From: Paraflavisolibacter caeni
Lineage (GTDB): Bacteria; Bacteroidota; Bacteroidia; Chitinophagales; Chitinophagaceae
NCBI RefSeq assembly: GCF_025628885.1
Contig: NZ_JAOTIF010000002.1
Span: 248,001 to 312,000 of the forward strand
Direction: 5' to 3'
DNA length: 64,000 nucleotides
Positions 43,414 through 53,533 of the stretch are shown in pieces; positions within the stretch are counted from its first letter, which is position 1; each line of letters starts with the position of its first letter. The notes under the pieces are model-generated. The model saw nothing but the letters and a program-made list of their open reading frames with translations, was not told where the DNA came from and searched no databases. The position numbers were made by a program, and so were the translations under genes.

Positions 43414-44448
43414 ATGATGAGAAGTCGTGTTATAAAATGTAGCTTGTTGGTTTTAAGTATGAGTTTGCTTTTTGCAAATGCTGATGCACAACGTACAAGC
43501 CGTAAAAGGGCTGCAGCGGCAAATACTCAGCAGCAACCTGGCCAGCAGGTTCAACAACAAAACAACAATACAGGACAGCCTTCCGGATACAATCCTTATG
43601 GTAACATTCCTATCAGGGTTGATTCATCTTCTATGGGTTATAATGATTCTGTCATTAAGAAATCCATGCGTCCTGATGCGGCTTTCGATAAAAGCTTCAT
43701 TAACGAAAGAACGCCTTTACCTTATGAGCACCTGCGTTGGGATGACGCCTTGTTTGCTGAAAAGGTATGGAGAGAAGTCGATCTTAGGGAAAAGATGAAT
43801 ATGCCGTTCCGTTACCAGGCTGAAGATGATAATGGTGACCAACGCTTCATTTCTATCCTGTTAAGAGCTGTTAGAAGTGGTGAAGTCACTACCTTCTCTG
43901 ATGATCGCTTCACAACTCCTTTGGATTCAGCAGGCGTTAGTGGTATCACTGCAGGCGGACCAGCGGATACTGTTGCTGTAAGAGATGTTAATGATCCTAA
44001 TAAGATTGTTGAATACCGGGTAACTCAATCCAGTTTTGATCCTAATTCTGTAATGAAATTCAGAATCAAGGAAGAATGGGTATTTGACCGTGAAGCGAGC
44101 CGTATGTTCGTTCGTATCCTGGGTATTGCGCCTTTGAAAACTTCTTATCTGCCTAATGGACAGGAGAGGGGAAGTTCGGTTATGTTTTGGGTTTACTACC
44201 CTGACTTGAGACCCATTCTGGCTAAGTATGAGGTATACAATCCGAAGAATATGGGTATGGGTCGTATGACATGGGAAGAATTATTTGAAAGCCGCATGTT
44301 CAGCAGCTATATCATTAAATCAACTCTGGATAATCCATTTAACAGGACTGTTCGCCAGGCAATTAAAGATCCTATCCTTGCATTGCTGGAAGGTGATAAT
44401 ATCAAGGAACGTATCTTCAATTATGAGCAAGACCTTTGGTCTTACTAA
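43414..44448 (+). CDS. gldN: T9SS ring protein GldN
   Basis: This 344-aa protein has a signal peptide ending near LFANADAQ, followed by a Gln/Asn-rich linker (residues 30-60). The conserved body carries DDALFAEKVWREVDLREKMN and VKEEWVFDRE-like segments typical of GldN/PorN. It begins 3 bases after the gldM stop (ATG at 43414 or 43417). A textbook terminator follows. Core T9SS channel genes (sprA/sov, porV, gldJ) are not in the window. Confidence 0.93.
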   Translation: MMRSRVIKCSLLVLSMSLLFANADAQRTSRKRAAAANTQQQPGQQVQQQNNNTGQPSGYNPYGNIPIRVDSSSMGYNDSVIKKSMRPDAAFDKSFINERTPLPYEHLRWDDALFAEKVWREVDLREKMNMPFRYQAEDDNGDQRFISILLRAVRSGEVTTFSDDRFTTPLDSAGVSGITAGGPADTVAVRDVNDPNKIVEYRVTQSSFDPNSVMKFRIKEEWVFDREASRMFVRILGIAPLKTSYLPNGQERGSSVMFWVYYPDLRPILAKYEVYNPKNMGMGRMTWEELFESRMFSSYIIKSTLDNPFNRTVRQAIKDPILALLEGDNIKERIFNYEQDLWSY

Positions 44449-44470
44449 TGTTGGTTACATAAAAAACTTA

Positions 44471-44496
44471 AATCCCGCTTCGGCGGGATTTTTTTA
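44471..44496 (+). terminator. Intrinsic terminator of gldKLMN
   Basis: AATCCCGC-TTCG-GCGGGATT, a UUCG-capped 8-bp stem, followed by TTTTTTT. Confidence 0.93.
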
Positions 44497-44603
44497 TTTC
44501 ATATGAAGAAATATTTCTAAAAAGGTTAAACACATCTGTAAAAGTTCAACAAATTTCCCCTATTTTTACCTTGGTTTTTCATAGGATATTGGATTTTAAA
44601 AAC

Positions 44604-44639
44604 GGGGCTGGATTTTAATCCTGGCCCCTTATTTTTTTT
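44604..44639. terminator. Possible second terminator between gldN and uvrC
   Basis: GGGGCTGGATT and AATCCTGGCCCC form an imperfect hairpin with a T-run on the plus side and a five-T run on the minus side. The remainder of the 317-base gap 44449-44765 shows no gene. Confidence 0.5.
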
Positions 44640-44765
44640 AGAGCTTTCATTTATTCTACCTGTTACACAATTACCTTACTTATAACCGTTTGCCTCACTT
44701 ACCATATTCGTATGATCATCTAATTTCTTTTGGCTCTTTTATTCATGTTCTTTATGGTAAATGCT

Positions 44766-46577
44766 TTATTGCTCTTTATCATTAGAAAAGTAATCCTTCA
44801 CAACCTTGGCTTTTGCTTGCCCGATGATACTTGCAATTTCTTCCAAAGGCTTTTCCCTGATGTTCTTGACAGACCGGAAGGCCTTTAACAGCTGATTAGC
44901 TGTACTTTTTCCTATGCCTTTGATATCTTCCAATTCATTCCTGAAAGTTCCTTTGCTTCGCTTGTTTTGGTGGAATGTCAACCCATAGCGGTGTACTTCG
45001 TCGCGGATGCGCCTGATCATTTTATGACTTTCTGCATCATATGGAAGCTTGAGCGATTCTTTGTCACCCACGAAAAAAATCTCTTCTTCATTTTTAGCAA
45101 GACCAATTAATGTCATGGTGCCAGATAAGCCCAGTTCTTCAATGGCTTCCTGTGCAGCTCCTAATTGCCCTTTACCGCCATCGATGATCACCAGTTGAGG
45201 GAAAGGTGATTTTTCTTCATACAGGCGCTTATAACGTCTGTAAACGGCCTCCTTCATGGATGCAAAGTCATTGATGCCCTGTACGGTTTTGATATTAAAA
45301 CATCGGTAATCCTTTTTACTGGGTTCGCCGTTCTTAAAACAAACCATAGCAGAAACAGGGTAACTCCCCTGGAAGTTAGAGTTGTCAAAGCACTCTATGT
45401 GCACAGGGAGCTCAGATAATTGCAGGTCGTCTTGTATTTGCTGTAATACGAACGTCTTATCAGTTCCTTTAGCGGTAAGTCTTAATCGTTCTTTATTCTT
45501 GATCTCATTGATGAAGTAATTGACATTTGTTTCTGAAAGTTCAAGTAGTTTTTTCTTGTCACCACCCTTTGGAACAGTCACTGTTACGTCGGGCTCATTA
45601 TACTCAATTTCAAAGGGAACAACAATCTCTTTGGCCTCACTATCATAAGTGCTTCGGATCTGTGCTATCGCATGCGCTAATATTTCTTCGTCCGTCTCGT
45701 CTAGTTGCGCTTCAATCTTTACTGTTTTTGTTTGGATAATGGCTCCATTTACAACCATTAAAAAGTTGAGGTAGGCAGTATCATCATCTTTCTGGAAAGC
45801 AAAAACATCCAGGTTTCTCAGAGTCGTACTTACTACAACAGAACGTGCCTGGTAGTTCTCCAGATAATTGATCTTCTTTAGTACCTGTTCGGCTTTTTCA
45901 AACTCCAATCCCTCGGCATGATGTTTCATTTCTTGTTTAAAATGCTGAATAACAGGTCCGAGATTTCCTTTGAGGAAGTTTTTAACCTGGCTGATATTTT
46001 CATTGTAGTCATCCAGTGACTGGTGCGCTTCACAAGGGCCTTTACAATTGCCCAGATGGTATTCAAGGCAAACCTTGAACTTACCTTTTTCAATATTCTT
46101 TTCAGTCAGGTTCAGGGGGCAAGTACGAAGTGGGATGGTCTGTTTGATGAAATTCAGAAGGTCCCTTACCTTACCCACTGAGGTATATGGCCCAAAATAC
46201 TGAGATCCATCTTCAATTTTTTGACGAGTCAAGAAAACACGGGGGAAGGGCTCATTTTTGATGACAATATATGGATAGGTCTTGTCGTCTTTTAAATTGA
46301 TATTAAAAAGGGGCTGGAACTGCTTTATTAAAGAGTTTTCCAGAAGGAAAGCATCCTGTTCTGAATGCACTATGGTAAATTCAATCCTATGTATTCTCTT
46401 TACCAGCTCATGTGTTTTATAGCTGGAGAGGTTTTTCAGAAAATAAGAGCTAACTCTTTTGCGAATATTTTTTGCTTTACCAACATACAACAAATTATTA
46501 CCGGTATCGAAATATTTATAAATGCCCGGCAGGTTTGGTAATGTAGGTGCAATAATTTGAAATTCAGATTGGGTCAT
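44766..46577 (-). CDS. uvrC: Excinuclease ABC subunit C
   Basis: The start at ATG 46577 (MTQSEFQIIAP) gives 603 aa; an 18-residue extension overlaps the upstream gene and is unlikely. The N-terminal GIY-YIG nuclease reads GIYKYFDTGNNLLYVGKA. A UVR motif is seen at LEFEKAEQVLKKINYLENY, the RNase H-like nuclease contains CFDNSNFQG and VIDGGKGQL, and C-terminal HhH motifs (LEDIKGIGKSTANQLLKAF) close it. It makes both incisions in nucleotide excision repair. Confidence 0.95.
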   Translation of the reverse strand: MTQSEFQIIAPTLPNLPGIYKYFDTGNNLLYVGKAKNIRKRVSSYFLKNLSSYKTHELVKRIHRIEFTIVHSEQDAFLLENSLIKQFQPLFNINLKDDKTYPYIVIKNEPFPRVFLTRQKIEDGSQYFGPYTSVGKVRDLLNFIKQTIPLRTCPLNLTEKNIEKGKFKVCLEYHLGNCKGPCEAHQSLDDYNENISQVKNFLKGNLGPVIQHFKQEMKHHAEGLEFEKAEQVLKKINYLENYQARSVVVSTTLRNLDVFAFQKDDDTAYLNFLMVVNGAIIQTKTVKIEAQLDETDEEILAHAIAQIRSTYDSEAKEIVVPFEIEYNEPDVTVTVPKGGDKKKLLELSETNVNYFINEIKNKERLRLTAKGTDKTFVLQQIQDDLQLSELPVHIECFDNSNFQGSYPVSAMVCFKNGEPSKKDYRCFNIKTVQGINDFASMKEAVYRRYKRLYEEKSPFPQLVIIDGGKGQLGAAQEAIEELGLSGTMTLIGLAKNEEEIFFVGDKESLKLPYDAESHKMIRRIRDEVHRYGLTFHQNKRSKGTFRNELEDIKGIGKSTANQLLKAFRSVKNIREKPLEEIASIIGQAKAKVVKDYFSNDKEQ

Positions 46578-46603
46578 GATTAGCAATAAGATGAATGGAG
46601 CAA

Positions 46604-47185
46604 TTATTCTGCCGGAGCGAATTGGCGCCATGAAACCTGTAGTGTTTTCAGACGCTCTGGTTGTTCTGGTTTTGAGATGCTGGTAATTATCTGGAAACTC
46701 TTATCCATTTGCCAGAACATTTTTTTATGAACGACGCTGTCTCCTTTATCATCCACCCAGTCTATGTAAATGGTTTCTACCTTACTGCTATCGCCGCTAG
46801 GCGATATGGTAATGTCCTGGCGTTGTATTCCACCATCTACTTTTTTAGGAGAGTAGCTTAACACTACCCGGTTTATGGCATCATCATATAATTTAGTTTC
46901 TGTGTATTCATCCTTTAAATCATCTGATGATAAATCCGGTATTGAAAAAAAGTCTCTGGCATAGGTCTTAAATTCTTCTCTCTTGATATAGGCTGTATCA
47001 GAGTGGCCATTTTCATTTTGTACCTTAATGATCTGGTAGAAAGAAGTATCTATATGGGCAACCTGGCTTTTTAAAAAGGAAAGAACAGGGAAAAATTCGT
47101 TGGGCTCTTCTCCTTCTTTTTGTTTTGATTTACATGAATATAAAAGGGCACAGCATAGCAAAGAGGTAAAAATCAATTTATTCAT
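46604..47185 (-). CDS. Hypothetical lipoprotein
   Basis: This 193-aa protein has a lipoprotein signal MNKLIFTSLLCCALLYSCKS with a Cys at residue 18. The mature part is acidic and predicted beta-rich, with repeated short strands. I do not recognise a domain. It is 26 bases upstream of uvrC and probably cotranscribed with it. A degenerate box TAATTTTA precedes it. Confidence 0.7.
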   Translation of the reverse strand: MNKLIFTSLLCCALLYSCKSKQKEGEEPNEFFPVLSFLKSQVAHIDTSFYQIIKVQNENGHSDTAYIKREEFKTYARDFFSIPDLSSDDLKDEYTETKLYDDAINRVVLSYSPKKVDGGIQRQDITISPSGDSSKVETIYIDWVDDKGDSVVHKKMFWQMDKSFQIITSISKPEQPERLKTLQVSWRQFAPAE

Positions 47186-47260
47186 GCGCTAAAATTAGCA
47201 CAGACGAGAGAAATGATGAATAATTTGACTGATGAATGATTCAAATGGCGAAGAAGCATG

Positions 47261-47283
47261 AAAAAGCCCCGCAGCAAGCGGGG
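47261..47283 (-). terminator. Terminator after the sigma/anti-sigma pair
   Basis: CCCCGC and GCGGGG form a GC-rich stem; on the minus strand it is followed by TTTTT. Confidence 0.85.
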
Positions 47284-47307
47284 ACTGTAAAGCAATTAGC
47301 CAGGATG

Positions 47308-48657
47308 TTAGTGGTTATTGAGTGTGACGCCAACTTTTAAACCGAAGTCAAAAAGATTTTCTTTAACCGGATACTTGCTGACAAAGCTGGAAAGTAGTTG
47401 GTAGCGCACCTGCGGCCCCACCTGCCAACTTGTTTTGCCAGATGAATAAGATACAAAAGTTTCCAGGTTAGTGTTTATATTCCAGCGGCGGATGAGCCAG
47501 GGCAGCTCTGCATAATTTTTATAGTCATTGGTGATTAAATATGCCCTGTCGCCAATGATGTAAGTAGGTTGCAGGCTTGAAGCAACCCCAACATGCATCT
47601 TGTTGGTACCTGTCAGCTTCACTTCAACTCCTAAAGGAACTGATGCCTGGAAGTAGTAGTTCTTTAGCCAGTTGGTTTTGCCACCGTTAAAGTTGCGGTA
47701 ATTGGAAATGGTATTGATCAAATCAACCCGATAGCCATTATTGAGTGCGATCGTGGCAACTTCTGGTGTGTAATTAAATGCTTTGATGTCATAGCGGCTG
47801 ACATTGAATTGAAAACCTGCCCTAAGTTTTGCGATTGGCGAAATTGTGTATTTAGACATAACGCCTAGTTCAAAGCCTATATTCGGCTTATGTGTAACTG
47901 CATTATTCACGTCATATAGCCCAAGGTAGTTGAAGGCTAAAGAAGGTGGCGTCGATGCCTGTACAAATGATTTATTCTCAGAAAGCTTGCGATAACTAAT
48001 ATTAGGGCTGAAAAAGATTTGCCACTGTAATTTTTCTTCTCTCGTGTTGATTTTTGCAATTGCTTCTTCTGCTTTTGCAGAATCTAATTGAACAGGAATA
48101 TCCTTAATATTTTTACTATACTCATTCAATGGAAAATTATTGGTTAATCCTTTGCTGCTCTGCAAAGCAATCAATTCGTTCATGGCCCCGGTCATCCTGT
48201 TGAATGGTACCAGATCTTCCTGCATGAAGGTCAAAAGACTTTGCCTTTCTTCAATGGTTCTGTCGGAAAATATAGGTTGAACAGTTAATAAAGGAATTTC
48301 CTTGCTGCCTTTATTAGATTTGAATGATTGAATAGAAGTTTGTTGTTTGTATTTCTTCAGATAGGTTGGGGTTGTAGATGCAATTCTGTGGTGGGGTAAT
48401 ACAGAAGGAATCATTTTGGATGGGCTTGATACTTCGTGGTTTTCAGCAGTTGTGGTATTAAATTCATTCCATACAAAATAACCACCAGCAGAAATTGTCA
48501 GAATTAATGAGGCAACAAAAGCAATCAGTCTTCTGCGCCGTTTATTGACGTCTCTTGAAATGTTTTTCCAGACGGCAGAAGAAGGATACATCCGGACCTG
48601 GTCAGCATTTTGTTGTAAAAAACGCTCAAAATCATCATGTTTTATCTTTCTCTGCAT
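47308..48657 (-). CDS. Putative dual-membrane anti-sigma factor with outer-membrane barrel
   Basis: This 449-aa protein combines a cytoplasmic N-terminus (residues 1-42, with FLQQNADQVRMYPSSAVWKNI), one inner-membrane helix (residues 43-64, LIAFVASLILTISAGGYFVW), a long low-order periplasmic stretch (about 65-210) and a beta-barrel-like C-terminus (about 210-449, alternating aromatic strands). I recall that this architecture next to an ECF sigma gene matches the dual membrane-spanning anti-sigma (Dma) proteins described in Bacteroides thetaiotaomicron. It would hold the upstream sigma factor and sense the outer membrane. Spacing to the sigma gene is 25 bases. Confidence 0.72.
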   Translation of the reverse strand: MQRKIKHDDFERFLQQNADQVRMYPSSAVWKNISRDVNKRRRRLIAFVASLILTISAGGYFVWNEFNTTTAENHEVSSPSKMIPSVLPHHRIASTTPTYLKKYKQQTSIQSFKSNKGSKEIPLLTVQPIFSDRTIEERQSLLTFMQEDLVPFNRMTGAMNELIALQSSKGLTNNFPLNEYSKNIKDIPVQLDSAKAEEAIAKINTREEKLQWQIFFSPNISYRKLSENKSFVQASTPPSLAFNYLGLYDVNNAVTHKPNIGFELGVMSKYTISPIAKLRAGFQFNVSRYDIKAFNYTPEVATIALNNGYRVDLINTISNYRNFNGGKTNWLKNYYFQASVPLGVEVKLTGTNKMHVGVASSLQPTYIIGDRAYLITNDYKNYAELPWLIRRWNINTNLETFVSYSSGKTSWQVGPQVRYQLLSSFVSKYPVKENLFDFGLKVGVTLNNH

Positions 48658-48682
48658 AATCAGTCAACTATTTTAGGGTTCA

Positions 48683-49258
48683 TTATTCGCCCCCTGATGC
48701 AAGCAAATAGATTTGTCTTGGTTTTTGCAGGATGTTCTTTTTGATCAGTATATCTTCCAACATTGCTTTTGCTCTTGTATATTGGCTTCTGCTGGTACTT
48801 TCTTCTATATCTAGCAAATCGCTGATCTCTTTGTGCGAAAATCCCTCAATAGCATATAAGTTTAATACAGTTCGGTAGCCGATGGGCAACAGTCTGATGC
48901 ATTCAACTACCTGTTTAGCCTGAAGTATGGAAGGAATGGTATCCTCTCTTATTTGCAGGCTGTTTGCATGGATCAGGTCAACACTTTCCTTAAACTTTTT
49001 GTTTTTTTTCAGGTTATTAATGCAGGTATGTATGATAATCCTTCTAATCCATCCCTCGAATGCTCCCTGGCTTTTGAAAGTGTGAATTTGTGAAAACACT
49101 TTGATGAAGCCTTCTTGAAGCATATCTTCTGCATCCTCCCGATTATGAGCATACCGGTAGCAAACTGCCAGCATTTTACCACTGTATTTTTCGTACAATG
49201 ATTTCTGGGCTTTAGCGCTGTTCTTCAAACAACCTTGTAAAATGGCTTCCTCGGTCAT
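48683..49258 (-). CDS. ECF RNA polymerase sigma factor
   Basis: This 191-aa sigma-70-type protein has region 2 at DAEDMLQEGFIKVFSQIHTF (residues 42-61) and region 4 helix-turn-helix at GYRTVLNLYAIEGFSHKEIS (about 128-147). The group is probably the Bacteroidota ECF21-type, judged by its partner. The partner gene directly downstream encodes the anti-sigma/beta-barrel fusion. Its regulon is unknown; its own promoter may contain its recognition sequence. Confidence 0.88.
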   Translation of the reverse strand: MTEEAILQGCLKNSAKAQKSLYEKYSGKMLAVCYRYAHNREDAEDMLQEGFIKVFSQIHTFKSQGAFEGWIRRIIIHTCINNLKKNKKFKESVDLIHANSLQIREDTIPSILQAKQVVECIRLLPIGYRTVLNLYAIEGFSHKEISDLLDIEESTSRSQYTRAKAMLEDILIKKNILQKPRQIYLLASGGE

Positions 49259-49460
49259 ATGGTTTCCGAATGGTTGCCTGTAAGTTAAGACATTTTTTAA
49301 AGTAAAAAGCTGCGTAAGTAAGAAAAAAAGTGTATAGGAGGAGGTTAGTTTGGGACATCCAAAAGGGAAAAGAAAATTAAAAGGTGCTGTATCAAAAGTA
49401 AATTGAAGGCGTTATGCATTGCATCAATGGAAATTGATTCCATCACCAACCTGAATAATA

Positions 49461-49492
49461 AGAGGCTGTATCATACATTTGATACAGCCTCT
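49461..49492 (-). terminator. Terminator of gpmI
   Basis: AGAGGCTGTATCA pairs perfectly with TGATACAGCCTCT across a 6-base loop, 18 bases beyond the gpmI stop. Confidence 0.8.
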
Positions 49493-49510
49493 GCTTAAAG
49501 TTGAAAACCA

Positions 49511-51040
49511 TTAATCAAAATCAACCAACACATCACCAGTCATTTCTGCAGGGATAGGCAGATTCATCATGGTTAAAATAGTTGGAGCTATATCACCGAG
49601 TTTTCCTTGTTTTATTTTTCCTTCCCAATTGCCATCAATGATAAAGAAGGGTACCAGGTTCAGAGTGTGAGCTGTATTAGGTGTGCCGTCTGGATTTATC
49701 ATATAATCTGCGTTACCATGGTCTGCAGTCAGGAAAACAGTGTAGTTGTTTTTCAAAGCAGCGTTGACTACTCTTTCCACGCATTTATCAACAGTTTCAA
49801 CTGCTTTTATAGCTGCTTCAAATACACCGGTATGACCAACCATGTCGGCATTAGCATAGTTCAGGCAAATAAAGTCAGCAGAGCCGGCTTCAATTTCCGG
49901 AATAATAGCGTCTGTCAATTCAATAGCGCTCATTTCAGGTTTTAAGTCGTAGGTGGCCACTTTAGGTGAAGGAACCAGGATACGTTTTTCACCTTCGAAG
50001 GTCTTTTCACGGCCGCCACTGAAGAAGAAAGTAACGTGCGGGTACTTTTCTGTTTCTGCAATGCGGATCTGTTTTTTGCCATTCATTTCCAGAACTTCAC
50101 CCAAGGTTTTATTCAGGTTATCGTTTTCAAAAATGACGTGTACATTTTCAAAAGTAGAATCGTATTCAGTCATCGTAGTATAATACAATGGCAACTTGCT
50201 CATTCCGTAATCCGGATAGTCTGTCTGAGACAGGACCTTAGTGATTTCGCGGCAACGGTCGGTGCGGAAATTGAAGCAAAGAACTGCATCATCGGCCTGA
50301 ATAGTTGCAACTGGCTTGCCACCTTCTTCTATCACGGTCGGTTTAATAAACTCATCTGTTACACCTTGGGCATAAGCTTGTTGTACAGCTTCAACGCCAG
50401 AGGAAGCTTTTTCCCCGATGCCTTTTACCATGGCATTATAGGCCAGTTGGACACGCTCCCAGCGGTTATCGCGATCCATAGCATAATAGCGTCCATCTAC
50501 AGTAGCTATTTTACCAGTGCTTTGAGCCATATGTGCTTGCAGTTCTTCCATGAAGGCCAGCCCGCTTTTCGGATCGCAGTCGCGGCCATCTGTAAAGGCA
50601 TGTACAAACACTTCAGTCAAACCTTTTGCCTTGCAAACGTCCAGAAGAGCTTTGAGGTGATTGATGTGGGAGTGAACTCCTCCATTACTTACCAAGCCAA
50701 TCAGGTGTAAAGCTTTTTTATTTTCCAGAGCGTAGTTGATGGTATCCTGCAGGGTTTTATTCTGAGCCAATTCGCCTTCACGGACCGCTACATTAATGCG
50801 TTGCAGTTCCTGGTAAACTATTCGGCCGGCGCCAAGGTTCAGGTGACCTACTTCTGAGTTACCCATTTGTCCTTCTGGGAGGCCAACGGCTTCGCCGCAG
50901 GTGGTCAAAGTGGTGTTTGGAAAGCGGGAATATAAGGATTGTACAAAGGGAACATTGGCATTTTGGATGGCATCAGAAGTTTTTACACTACCTAAACCCC
51001 AACCATCCATGATCACGAGGATGACTTTACGGTCTTGCAT
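49511..51040 (-). CDS. gpmI: 2,3-bisphosphoglycerate-independent phosphoglycerate mutase
   Basis: The start at ATG 51040 (MQDRKVILVIMDGWG) gives 509 aa. Metal-binding Asp is in VIMDGWG, the catalytic Ser in GQMGNSEVGHLN, and metal ligands in NYANADMVGHTG and FLTADHGNAD. It interconverts 3- and 2-phosphoglycerate. The longer frame from 51085 is rejected because the TAnnTTTG box at 51083-51090 lies there. Confidence 0.95.
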   Translation of the reverse strand: MQDRKVILVIMDGWGLGSVKTSDAIQNANVPFVQSLYSRFPNTTLTTCGEAVGLPEGQMGNSEVGHLNLGAGRIVYQELQRINVAVREGELAQNKTLQDTINYALENKKALHLIGLVSNGGVHSHINHLKALLDVCKAKGLTEVFVHAFTDGRDCDPKSGLAFMEELQAHMAQSTGKIATVDGRYYAMDRDNRWERVQLAYNAMVKGIGEKASSGVEAVQQAYAQGVTDEFIKPTVIEEGGKPVATIQADDAVLCFNFRTDRCREITKVLSQTDYPDYGMSKLPLYYTTMTEYDSTFENVHVIFENDNLNKTLGEVLEMNGKKQIRIAETEKYPHVTFFFSGGREKTFEGEKRILVPSPKVATYDLKPEMSAIELTDAIIPEIEAGSADFICLNYANADMVGHTGVFEAAIKAVETVDKCVERVVNAALKNNYTVFLTADHGNADYMINPDGTPNTAHTLNLVPFFIIDGNWEGKIKQGKLGDIAPTILTMMNLPIPAEMTGDVLVDFD

Positions 51041-51082
51041 TTTATTAGAATTGAAGAAATTACAAATTTTGTTTAGAGGCTG

Positions 51083-51090
51083 CAAATCTA
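51083..51090 (-). promoter_or_regulatory. Promoter -7 box for gpmI
   Basis: The minus strand reads TAGATTTG, 42 bases before the ATG at 51040. Confidence 0.5.
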
Positions 51091-51187
51091 TGAAAACGTA
51101 AAGGTTTTGTTTAAATTACGCCCAATTCGTACCAAACTCATCTGCATGGCACACTTTTCGATCCCTGCAGGCCGACAAACATAATGT

Positions 51188-51568
51188 ATGCAAAAATTAT
51201 TTGCCCTGACCACGATCAGCTTTTTATTTCTTTTAACCGCATTTACACCTATAAGGGGAATAGATGAAGTGGTAAATGCATTGCGGAAGGGGGATGCCAC
51301 TGAAATTTCCAAGTACATTGATGATAATGTAGAAATTTCGTTGCCTGGCAAAAGTGATACCTACAGCAAGGCCCAGGCTGTGATGATCCTCAAGGATTTC
51401 TTTTCCAATAACGGAGTCACTGGTTTTGAATTGAAACATAAAGGGGAGAATAATGGCAACCAGTATTGTATTGGTACGCTGCTTACGCAATCTGGTAATT
51501 ACCGCACGACCGTTTATATGAAAACGATCAATGGGAGGCAGTTGGTACGGGAGCTTCGGTTCCAGTAG
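51188..51568 (+). CDS. DUF4783 domain exported protein
   Basis: This 126-aa protein has a signal peptide (MQKLFALTTISFLFLLTAF) and a small NTF2-like fold (IDEVVNALRKGDATEISKYI, GQYCIGTLLTQSG-like strand region). It matches DUF4783, restricted to Bacteroidota and often encoded just before nadC, as here. Function is unknown. Confidence 0.75.
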   Translation: MQKLFALTTISFLFLLTAFTPIRGIDEVVNALRKGDATEISKYIDDNVEISLPGKSDTYSKAQAVMILKDFFSNNGVTGFELKHKGENNGNQYCIGTLLTQSGNYRTTVYMKTINGRQLVRELRFQ

Positions 51569-51609
51569 CCGCGGAATGCCTAGATTAAGTAGGATAAAAA
51601 GAAATTGAA

Positions 51610-51634
51610 GGCCGCTCAACCGAGTGGCCTTTTT
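51610..51634 (+). terminator. Terminator after the DUF4783 gene
   Basis: GGCCGCTC pairs imperfectly with GAGTGGCC, followed by TTTTT. Confidence 0.75.
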
Positions 51635-51693
51635 CGTGAAGGGATTTTCGAATCTGAATCTGAGGATGGTGGGAATGACGATTGGGGTATTGA

Positions 51694-51735
51694 GGTTTGG
51701 AGTTGGAAGTTTGGAGTTTGAAGTTGAGAGTTGGG
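51694..51735. repeat. 7-bp-period tandem array
   Basis: Six 7-base units such as AGTTGGA (51701), AGTTTGG (51708) and AGTTGAG (51722). It is the reverse-complement type of the AAACTTC units before cysS. Confidence 0.65.
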
Positions 51736-51864
51736 GGGCAAAACTTGGAGGATGGGGGTTGGTTTTGTACCTTTAGACTCAGCTCCACCTTACTCCGTTC
51801 AAAGCATTGAAGGCGTTCTGCCTGTAGGTTGTTTTCCCCTTATTTAGGAGCATTTGCTCAATTC

Positions 51865-52018
51865 AGGTCGAAGCATAGTCGAAGGATGGTCGAAGGATGA
51901 TCGAAGGATGGTCGAAGTAGCCTAGGCTTAGGTACGGCTGATGTATACCTAAAGTACGCCTATGATACGGCTTAGCTATGGAGTAGGTAGGGAGTAATTA
52001 TGGTTCAGATATGGGTTA
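51865..52018. repeat. Second degenerate array with 11-bp period
   Basis: Fourteen consecutive 11-base units: TAGTCGAAGGA (51876), TGGTCGAAGGA (51887), GGTACGGCTGA (51931), GATACGGCTTA (51964) and GGTAGGGAGTA (51986). In reverse complement the later units match the TACTCCGTA-type of the array at 32150. The gap 51569-52247 holds this array, the heptad array and a terminator, and no gene. Confidence 0.75.
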
Positions 52019-52252
52019 AGAAAAGGGAGGGGGGCAAATTCTGTTTCGTGCACTAAGTATACTTGAAGTGTGCTTCAGCTATACACCATCCCTACTTAAG
52101 GTATGCTCTGCCGAAGGAAGATATATTGTAAAGCATGGACTTTAAAGGAACTACGTATTATTTTTCTGTTGTTTGTAAAGAGGGCAGCAGTTCAAAATAC
52201 ACAGTCTTATAAAAAAGACGATCTATACTAAATAATCCTGCACGTCCATGGT

Positions 52253-52260
52253 TAATTTTG
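52253..52260 (+). promoter_or_regulatory. Promoter -7 box for nadC
   Basis: TAATTTTG ends 5 bases before ATG 52266, giving a nearly leaderless mRNA; the earlier ATG at 52248 lies upstream of the transcript. Confidence 0.55.
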
Positions 52261-52265
52261 GTGTT

Positions 52266-53126
52266 ATGAAGAATTTTGAAGAACAATTGCGCAAATTAGT
52301 TGATGCTGCTTTGCTGGAAGATGTTGGTGATGGCGATCATTCGACGCTCTGCTGCATTCCGGCAGATGCAAAGGGAAAAGCTGTATTGAAAATTAAACAG
52401 GAAGGTATACTGGCGGGTGTAGATGTTGCAGAAAAGATATTTCGTTTTAGAACGCCTGCCGTTGAGTTTATACGGCATAAAGCTGATGGCGAAATCATGG
52501 AAGCTGGTGAGACAGCTTTTGAGGTAGATGCATTTGTGCACACTATACTGCAGTGCGAGCGCCTGGTGTTGAACTGTATGCAGCGCATGAGTGGTATTGC
52601 CACACTGACCAGGGAATATACAGATAAACTGAAGGGTTATAAAACCCGATTGCTGGATACACGGAAGACTACACCAAATTTTCGATTACTTGAAAAAGAG
52701 GCGGTAAGGATCGGAGGAGGTGTCAATCACCGTTTTGGTCTTTATGATATGATCATGCTGAAGGATAATCATATTGATTACTGTGGGGGCATAGAAGAGG
52801 CCATCAACCGGGCACATGATTATGTGCAACGCTACCGCCCGGATCTGAAAATAGAAGTGGAAACCCGCTCTCTTGAAGATGTCAACAAAGTTGCTACCAT
52901 GGCAAGAGGAAAGGTGTTTCGTATTATGCTTGATAACTTTACTCCGGAACAAATCAAAGAAACGATACACATCATTGGTGAAGATTTTGAAACGGAAGCC
53001 AGTGGTGGGATCAACTTACAAAATATTGAAGCGTATGCTGCAACTGGTGTTGATTATGTGAGTGTGGGCGGCTTGATTCACCAGGCGAAGAGTGTGGATT
53101 TGAGTTTGAAGGCAGTGGTGGTTTGA
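52266..53126 (+). CDS. nadC: Nicotinate-nucleotide pyrophosphorylase (carboxylating)
   Basis: The start at 52266 gives 286 aa. NadC features are LLEDVGDGDHST near residue 12, LNCMQRMSGIAT, LLDTRKTTPNFRLLEKEAVRIGGG, MLKDNHI, and the PRPP-binding EASGGINLQNI. It converts quinolinate to nicotinate mononucleotide. It is followed by the SUI1-type gene; nadE, the last NAD step, is about 5.5 kb downstream. Confidence 0.95.
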   Translation: MKNFEEQLRKLVDAALLEDVGDGDHSTLCCIPADAKGKAVLKIKQEGILAGVDVAEKIFRFRTPAVEFIRHKADGEIMEAGETAFEVDAFVHTILQCERLVLNCMQRMSGIATLTREYTDKLKGYKTRLLDTRKTTPNFRLLEKEAVRIGGGVNHRFGLYDMIMLKDNHIDYCGGIEEAINRAHDYVQRYRPDLKIEVETRSLEDVNKVATMARGKVFRIMLDNFTPEQIKETIHIIGEDFETEASGGINLQNIEAYAATGVDYVSVGGLIHQAKSVDLSLKAVVV

Positions 53127-53188
53127 TAGAGAAGGGCAATGGAAAATATTAAGTTTGTAATTTCAAATTAGAATTTGAAAACTGATGT

Positions 53189-53533
53189 ATGAGCAAGAAA
53201 AACAAAAGCGATAAATTCGGATTTGTATATAGTACTGATCCAAACTTTCAATTTGAAGGTGAAGAGCAGGAGCGTCAGGATACTTTGCCTCCACAACAGC
53301 AAAAGCTGAAGGTAAAGCTGGAAACAAAGCACAGAGGAGGCAAGACTGTTACTTTGATAGATGGATTTGTTGGACAGGAAGAAGACCTGGAAGATTTGGG
53401 TAAGAAATTAAAGAACTTTTGCGGTACTGGTGGTTCGGCTAAAGATGGTGAGGTTATTATCCAAGGTGACCAGCGAGAGAAGGTGATGCAGTGGTTGTTG
53501 AAAAATGGGTATAAGAATGCGAAAAAGGTTTAG
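53189..53533 (+). CDS. SUI1/eIF1-like translation factor (YciH family)
   Basis: This 114-aa protein has an acidic N-terminal half (residues 1-45) and a SUI1 fold: VKLETKHRGGKTVTLIDGF, KNFCGTGGSAKDGEVIIQG. YciH-like proteins bind the small ribosomal subunit and may check initiation. Size and the GTGGSAK segment are typical. A terminator follows. Confidence 0.87.
   Translation: MSKKNKSDKFGFVYSTDPNFQFEGEEQERQDTLPPQQQKLKVKLETKHRGGKTVTLIDGFVGQEEDLEDLGKKLKNFCGTGGSAKDGEVIIQGDQREKVMQWLLKNGYKNAKKV

Follow-up and report, generated by a model that had tools for sequence, protein, structure and literature searches.

Within the window, a 64,000-nucleotide stretch of the Paraflavisolibacter caeni genome, we identify an ECF sigma factor gene followed by a gene for a partner of the Dma type, and we confirm that this pairing is real and not a product of chance. 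As judged from its sequence and from a structural model, the pair would work like the Dma and Reo anti-sigma factors of Bacteroides and Phocaeicola, whose architecture it reproduces: a cytoplasmic segment, a single membrane helix, a disordered linker and a beta-barrel in one chain, encoded next to the sigma factor. Gut bacteria are already known to have this two-membrane anti-sigma design, of which the pair described here is a well-supported further case. It extends the Dma design to a family beyond the gut Bacteroidales, represented by no fewer than 34 further ortholog loci. The predicted autoregulatory promoter can be put to the test and, with natural relatives of fused, split and multi-segment form, opens the way to direct tests of the need for the tether and of the barrel signal.

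A conserved gene pair of a sigma factor and a predicted anti-sigma factor

The two open reading frames lie on the minus strand, 25 bases apart, and their ends fall exactly where the original prediction had placed them (Table 1). The sigma factor matches Pfam families Sigma70_r2 (E 3.7e-18) and Sigma70_r4_2 (E 1.3e-13). Its 449-residue partner gave no Pfam match at E <= 1, whether to FecR, TonB-receptor or any other domain. The genome as a whole comprises 7.0 Mb in 89 contigs.

Table 1. Positions of the gene pair and associated features in the window
Feature	Coordinates	Strand	Basis
Lipoprotein-like ORF, 193 aa	46604..47185	-	Adjoins uvrC in 13/13 wide loci; 22-45% identical
Terminator-like hairpin directly after anti-sigma gene	47267..47283	-	Hairpin scan; similar hairpins by eye in several ortholog gaps
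Candidate anti-sigma factor of Dma type, 449 aa	47308..48657	-	AF2 model, fold match, 34 orthologs at 30-44% identity
Outer-membrane beta-barrel (predicted), residues 208-449, probably 10 strands	47311..48036	-	AF2 model, fold match
Disordered periplasmic tether (predicted), residues 63-207	48037..48471	-	No structure in AF2 model, pLDDT < 50 over 70-188; low column identity
Inner-membrane helix (predicted), residues 44-62	48472..48528	-	Hydropathy peak, helix in model; RRRR N-terminal to helix
Predicted sigma-binding cytoplasmic segment, residues 1-43	48529..48657	-	Conserved; motif FExFL..AD..RMxPSxxVWxxI; binding putative
ECF sigma factor (das-like), 191 aa	48683..49258	-	Pfam Sigma70_r2/r4_2; ortholog identity 71-81% (34 loci)
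Promoter GCAGC-N16-TGTCTTA of sigma gene (predicted)	49286..49313	-	34/35 upstream regions; 27 bases before start codon
Terminator-like hairpin between gpmI and sigma gene	49461..49492	-	Hairpin scan; weak alone

At E <= 0.001, matches to the anti-sigma protein were found in 44/98 genomes, namely 44/59 of the same family and 0/39 of other families of the order; none of the matches listed contains an internal stop. A sigma gene lies 20-73 bases upstream of the anti-sigma gene in each of the 36 ortholog loci examined. These comprise the window's own locus and one genome represented twice (L004/L031), which leaves 34 others, all with the sigma gene directly upstream. The six orthologs in the genome contig collection all come from records titled Bacteroidetes, Bacteroidota or Chitinophagaceae bacterium.

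Predicted domain architecture of the anti-sigma factor

An AlphaFold2 model built on an alignment of 35 orthologs (A1) has helices at residues 7-20 and 27-68, the second of which includes a hydrophobic stretch that starts at residue 44, just after RRRR. The hydropathy maximum also falls at residue 44 (mean 2.1 over 19 residues, locus L040). Beta-strands run from residue 210 to 446, with a pLDDT of at least 88 in most ten-residue blocks, falling to 66-71 at residues 231-250; we count about 10 strands, read by eye from the DSSP line. For the whole chain, the mean pLDDT is 74.4 and the pTM 0.56. In VIA-align searches of the PDB, the top match is an integrative model of OmpA (Z 15.5, 169 residues, rmsd 2.8), followed by an OmpA structure (14.8), PagL (13.9), NspA (13.8), OmpW (13.4) and OprF (13.3), and Foldseek and VIA-align alike group the domain with these proteins (Z 13.3-15.5). 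The C-terminal domain is thus confidently predicted to be an OmpA-like barrel, which would insert into the outer membrane, and residues 1-43 would bind the sigma factor. The order of domains claimed in the original prediction is supported by both the model and the fold match, and a C-terminus devoid of a barrel, the outcome named there as fatal to the idea, is excluded by the model. A reading of the helix as a signal peptide is disfavoured solely by the conserved 43-residue segment that precedes it.

Conservation along the chain follows the predicted domains. Across residues 1-30, of which W30 is invariant, mean column identity is 0.60-0.66; it drops to about 0.2 in the greater part of the linker and is 0.40-0.80 in the barrel, where it reaches 0.70-0.80 at residues 361-390 and 406-435. 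Many orthologs have a short IESV.N segment directly before the barrel; the window protein lacks it. Linker length in the 35 orthologs ranges from 108 to 196 residues, with a median of 145. The tether is free in sequence and bounded below in length. An unfolded chain has a contour of 0.36 nm per residue, so that even the shortest linker would extend to at least ~39 nm. The periplasm is 20-30 nm wide, and the tether should therefore normally be slack. It is too long and too variable to serve as a fine distance gauge.

Predicted promoter of the sigma gene and candidate targets

The motif GCAGC-N16-TGTCTWA precedes the sigma gene in 34/35 upstream regions, the window's included; the spacing is N16 in 33 of them and N17 in one, and L029 lacks the motif. 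This conservation points to autoregulation of the sigma operon, which we accordingly predict. As judged by eye, many orthologs also conserve the short 5′ leader that follows the promoter (49259-49285, minus strand; ACAGGCAACC). In 18 genomes searched for the pattern, it occurs at the sigma gene in all 18, with 15 other matches compared with 5 for a reversed-pattern control. A sequence model of the promoter, R1, ranked the sigma promoter as the best match in 9/9 genomes, and it was the only one of the 150 candidates scored per genome to fall below E 0.08; since R1 was trained on sigma-promoter sites, only the gap to the next matches is informative.

Related promoters are evident in more distant pairs. 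In 36 of these, GCARY combined with a TGTCTAA-like box (<= 2 mismatches) peaks at spacings of 16 and 17, with 4 and 9 regions, respectively, versus 0-3 for any other spacing in the range 6-30; by hand count, 14/36 have a box pair at spacing 15-17 and 22/36 have none. GCAGC and CGTCTAA, at a spacing of 16, lie upstream of the Bacteroides finegoldii das2 counterpart (L121) and of the das2-like genes of L148 and L155. At another B. finegoldii locus, L120, the promoter is GCAGT-N16-CATTTAT, four mismatches from TGTCTAA. Within the window genome, the box of L058 is two mismatches from the window's, and those of L057 and L059 differ more. Because a motif recognized by B. fragilis EcfO has already been published (Ndamukong 2013, as stated in PMC7366714), we make no claim that the present motif is entirely new. 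BtModulome (PMC12596196) names Das1-Dma1, with no motif given for it in the part examined.

We also looked at the neighbours of other occurrences of the motif. Sixty family genomes gave 61 pattern matches, of which 15 are sigma promoters by position and 4 more proved to be so, leaving 42; the addition of 5 further non-sigma matches from the 18-genome set brought the total to 47, with five matches of that set left out (one in G016, one in G006 and three in G012). A script reported 5 TonB-dependent-receptor neighbours among 51, from which we dropped L186, with the motif inside the receptor ORF, and to which we added L067 by eye, its receptor ORF being cut by the contig. On this count, a TonB-dependent receptor gene lies downstream of the exact motif in 5/47 cases (L055, L063, L064, L067 and L220) versus 0/36 at spacing 12, a difference with a one-sided p of about 0.05, calculated by hand. 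Compared like for like, in the 60 genomes to which the control was applied as well, the figures are 3/42 (L055, L067 and L220) versus 0/36, which is not significant (p about 0.15). We regard receptor genes as targets, partly hand-curated and not significant, as a lead only. That the sigma factor has a regulon of its own is an unproven suggestion: in the pattern search and with R1, only the promoter of the sigma gene itself stands out, and these two approaches and the neighbour test establish no target beyond the operon. L055 lies in the window genome.

Placement of the sigma factor among Das-type sigmas

A tree of 56 sigma factors, built by a quick method and with long outgroup branches, brings the window clade together (support 99, starred) and places Das1-like, Das2-like and window sigmas in one starred group of 50 rows (96). 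Six of the seven other ECF sigmas of the window genome that were included fall outside this group; the seventh, L047, falls inside. A 25-row node that unites the window sigma with five Bacteroidales sigmas has a support of only 83, and the Das1-like sigmas are kin to the Das2-like ones. On this quick tree the window sigma appears to group with Das-type sigmas, and its membership of ECF21 is putative.

Named comparators were found by tblastn in the plasmid collection. In L121, the order sigma - barrel - DUF4943 - DUF4858 - nitronate monooxygenase is that of the dma2 operon; L120 has a NigD-like neighbour and is presumably of the Dma1/Reo type; L119 belongs to Parabacteroides distasonis and L123 to Phocaeicola massiliensis. 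Sigma identity to the window protein is 44.6% for L119, 38.0% for L120 and 35.3% for L121. An hhalign comparison of the window family with the Dma-like proteins of these four Bacteroidales loci aligned 61 N-terminal columns (E 1.7e-5, probability only 78.5) and returned no alignment of the barrels. The record that holds L121 (NZ_OY725915.1) and its sister records are labelled as plasmids and carry housekeeping genes, among them queC and nadC; they may be misassigned pieces of chromosome.

Fused, split and tandem forms in the wider group

Profile A1 matches at E 0.001 in 72/247 genomes of the class, mostly over the N-terminus. Genomes G128 and G165 carry das2-like pairs yet are absent from these 72. 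Among 29 loci drawn from the class (L068-L096, including five of the window's family), 28 contain the sigma gene (L082 does not) and 27 have a long ORF after it (L075 does not). In a set of 34 pairs, the part of the partner that follows the helix is at least 260 residues long in 26 and shorter in 8, one of which (L093) is cut by the contig. The window genome itself encodes three more pairs of a sigma factor and a long partner, L057, L058 and L059; the PF13568 barrel scores above the cut-off in L058 and L059 and just under it in L057.

Other relatives are split. In L056 (window genome, C12:324200-330500), L103, L104, L105 and L106, a barrel-less anti-sigma of 235-263 residues is followed by a separate signal-peptide-like protein. 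A PF13568 scan covered the first separate protein of four of these five loci, that of L106 being cut off and left out, and found the family above the cut-off in L103, L104 and L105 and not in L056. By eye, no barrel gene adjoins two further short anti-sigma genes in the window genome, L060 and L045. The split relatives, which lack a fused barrel, show that such systems can do without a covalent tether.

In some relatives, the predicted sigma-binding motif repeats about every 31 residues before the membrane helix. Pattern matching finds four tandem copies in L079, three in L083 and two in L077; L081 has one copy by pattern and a second by eye. Such tandem segments could hold several sigma molecules, or bind one more tightly. 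We raise, tentatively, the broader possibility that one sigma group is served by a modular switch across the Bacteroidia, in which the barrel may be fused or separate, the sigma-binding segment repeated two to four times and the autoregulatory promoter often of a common GCARC-N16/17 type. The tether would then be one solution among several, and the state of the barrel, not the tether, would be what counts.

Gene neighbourhood

In 13/13 wide loci the genes run sigma - anti-sigma - lipoprotein-like gene - uvrC, and a gpmI-like gene is within reach in 12 of the 13; in L108, extra ORFs intervene and gpmI is not in reach. We regard the pair as a long-established locus of the chromosome that is not mobile, and the conserved succession of the anti-sigma and lipoprotein-like genes as synteny with uvrC. 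The lipoprotein-like protein matches no family above cut-off, and none of the NigD family. Its gene probably shares a transcript with uvrC, not with the pair. Membership in the pair's operon was considered and rejected, as a terminator-like hairpin lies between, with similar ones seen by eye in several relatives. Each hairpin is weak evidence alone, because the scan found 4 terminator-like sites in the stretch and 2.5 +/- 1.8 in shuffled sequences. Rfam yielded no match over positions 44000-53500.

A DUF4783-like gene (51188-51568, plus strand) and nadC (52248-53126, plus strand) lie near the window pair, and DUF4783 and nadC are also found near the das2-type pairs L121, L148 and L155. We inspected 40 other nadC loci, out of 127 genomes with nadC, and a sigma factor with a long partner is present beside nadC in only two (L148 and L155, from one family); at the nadC locus of L181, there is a sigma-like fragment far off and the partner is absent. 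The shared place is thus probably a coincidence. Orthology with Das2 on the basis of gene neighbourhood was rejected, given these 2/40 loci and the mutual kinship of Das1-like and Das2-like sigmas.

Discussion

Starting from the gene pair, domain order, barrel fold and promoter conservation, all of which were computed directly, we consider it probable that these two genes form a self-reinforcing switch of the Dma type that responds to the state of the envelope. The cytoplasmic segment of ~43 residues would hold the ECF sigma factor at the inner membrane; the single helix would cross that membrane and the long, loose tether the periplasm, and the chain would end in the outer membrane as a small barrel. 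Disturbance of this barrel, or a failure to assemble it, whether through membrane damage, blocked assembly or a bound ligand, would lead to inactivation of the inhibitor, probably by proteolysis. The freed sigma factor would then transcribe its own two-gene operon from GCAGC-N16-TGTCTWA, in positive feedback, and putatively further envelope genes as well.

Work on related systems bears on the nature of the presumed signal. PMC9308784 reports that the toxin BcpT induces Phocaeicola vulgatus M0N98_03760-61 (EcfO-Reo), with the sigma gene up 33-fold, and that many of the BcpT-induced genes are induced by the BamA inhibitor bacteroidetocin A as well. PMC13114119 proposes that EcfO-Reo senses outer-membrane stress. 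This behaviour favours barrel state or assembly over distance as the signal. A special case of our preferred explanation is that the barrel has no ligand and is simply a client of the BAM machinery, its presence in unassembled form in the periplasm triggering loss of the anti-sigma. The overlap with the bacteroidetocin A response speaks for such surveillance, and the AF2 model and OmpA-type fold match are compatible with it; the barrel, with conservation of 0.70-0.80 against ~0.2 in the linker, seems better conserved than a passive client needs to be, and we regard this special case as possible but rather unlikely.

It is also possible that the chain is cut after export, giving a separate inner-membrane anti-sigma and a free outer-membrane barrel that signal by contact. 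Some anti-sigma factors of the FecR type cleave themselves, the same sigma group includes barrel-less anti-sigmas followed by a signal-peptide-like protein, and the IESV.N segment, though missing from the window protein, sits just before the barrel in many orthologs. All 35 aligned orthologs are nevertheless fused, with a tether of at least 108 residues and low column identity over most of its length, and L060 and L045 have no evident barrel partner, so that we think cleavage unlikely. The original prediction saw envelope distance as a signal, such that membranes moving apart would pull on the tether and free the sigma factor. A length floor of 108 residues does suit a part that spans the periplasm; yet the contour of even the shortest linker exceeds the usual periplasmic width, and lengths vary nearly two-fold among orthologs, which makes a distance or tension sensor very improbable. 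That a barrel protein and a sigma factor are merely neighbours, with no functional link, is scarcely credible. Binding of the anti-sigma to the sigma factor is putative; the pairing, however, recurs in all 34 other ortholog loci, in 28 of the 29 loci L068-L096 and in named Bacteroidales, and the partners have in common an N-terminal motif that is in tandem in some relatives.

The switch of the Dma type that we favour agrees with what PMC13088901 describes: Dma proteins consist of an N-terminal anti-sigma domain, a helix, a disordered tether and a C-terminal barrel, are encoded beside an ECF21 sigma, occur only in Bacteroidota, and release Das1 or Das2 when Dma1 or Dma2 is lost. The likeness to Dma proteins noted in the original prediction is borne out by this description, by the AF2 model and fold match, by the N-terminal hhalign result and by the sigma tree. 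With Dma2-Das2 of B. thetaiotaomicron (BT_1558-BT_1559; PMC13088901), the window pair shares the domain order and the adjacent ECF sigma, and L121, ordered as BT_1559-BT_1555, has the window's -35 element, 16-base spacing and GTCTAA core. The das2 operon differs in having DUF4943, DUF4858 and nitronate monooxygenase genes downstream, where the window has a terminator-like hairpin, and the das2-counterpart sigma is only 35% identical. The domain order is likewise that of Dma1-Das1 or EcfO-Reo (PMC9308784 and PMC13114119), for which autoinduction is reported; for the window, an autoregulatory promoter is predicted. Unlike the window, with TGTCTTA, L120 has CATTTAT as its downstream box, and its NigD-like protein gives no BLAST match to the window's lipoprotein-like protein. 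The best-ranked literature matches include no report of such a pair outside the Bacteroidales, and the parts of PMC8999054 and PMC12045153 considered hold nothing bearing on its novelty.

The two-membrane arrangement also invites comparison with other forms of signalling to ECF sigmas. In cell-surface signalling of the FecR type, an outer-membrane barrel controls an ECF sigma factor through an inner-membrane anti-sigma, much as the window pair would do. In that system, a TonB-dependent receptor supplies the barrel as a separate protein; here it is small and fused to the anti-sigma. The split relatives L103-L105 share the sigma group and the N-terminal motif of the window pair; their PF13568 barrel is encoded by the next gene, so that two polypeptides take the place of one.
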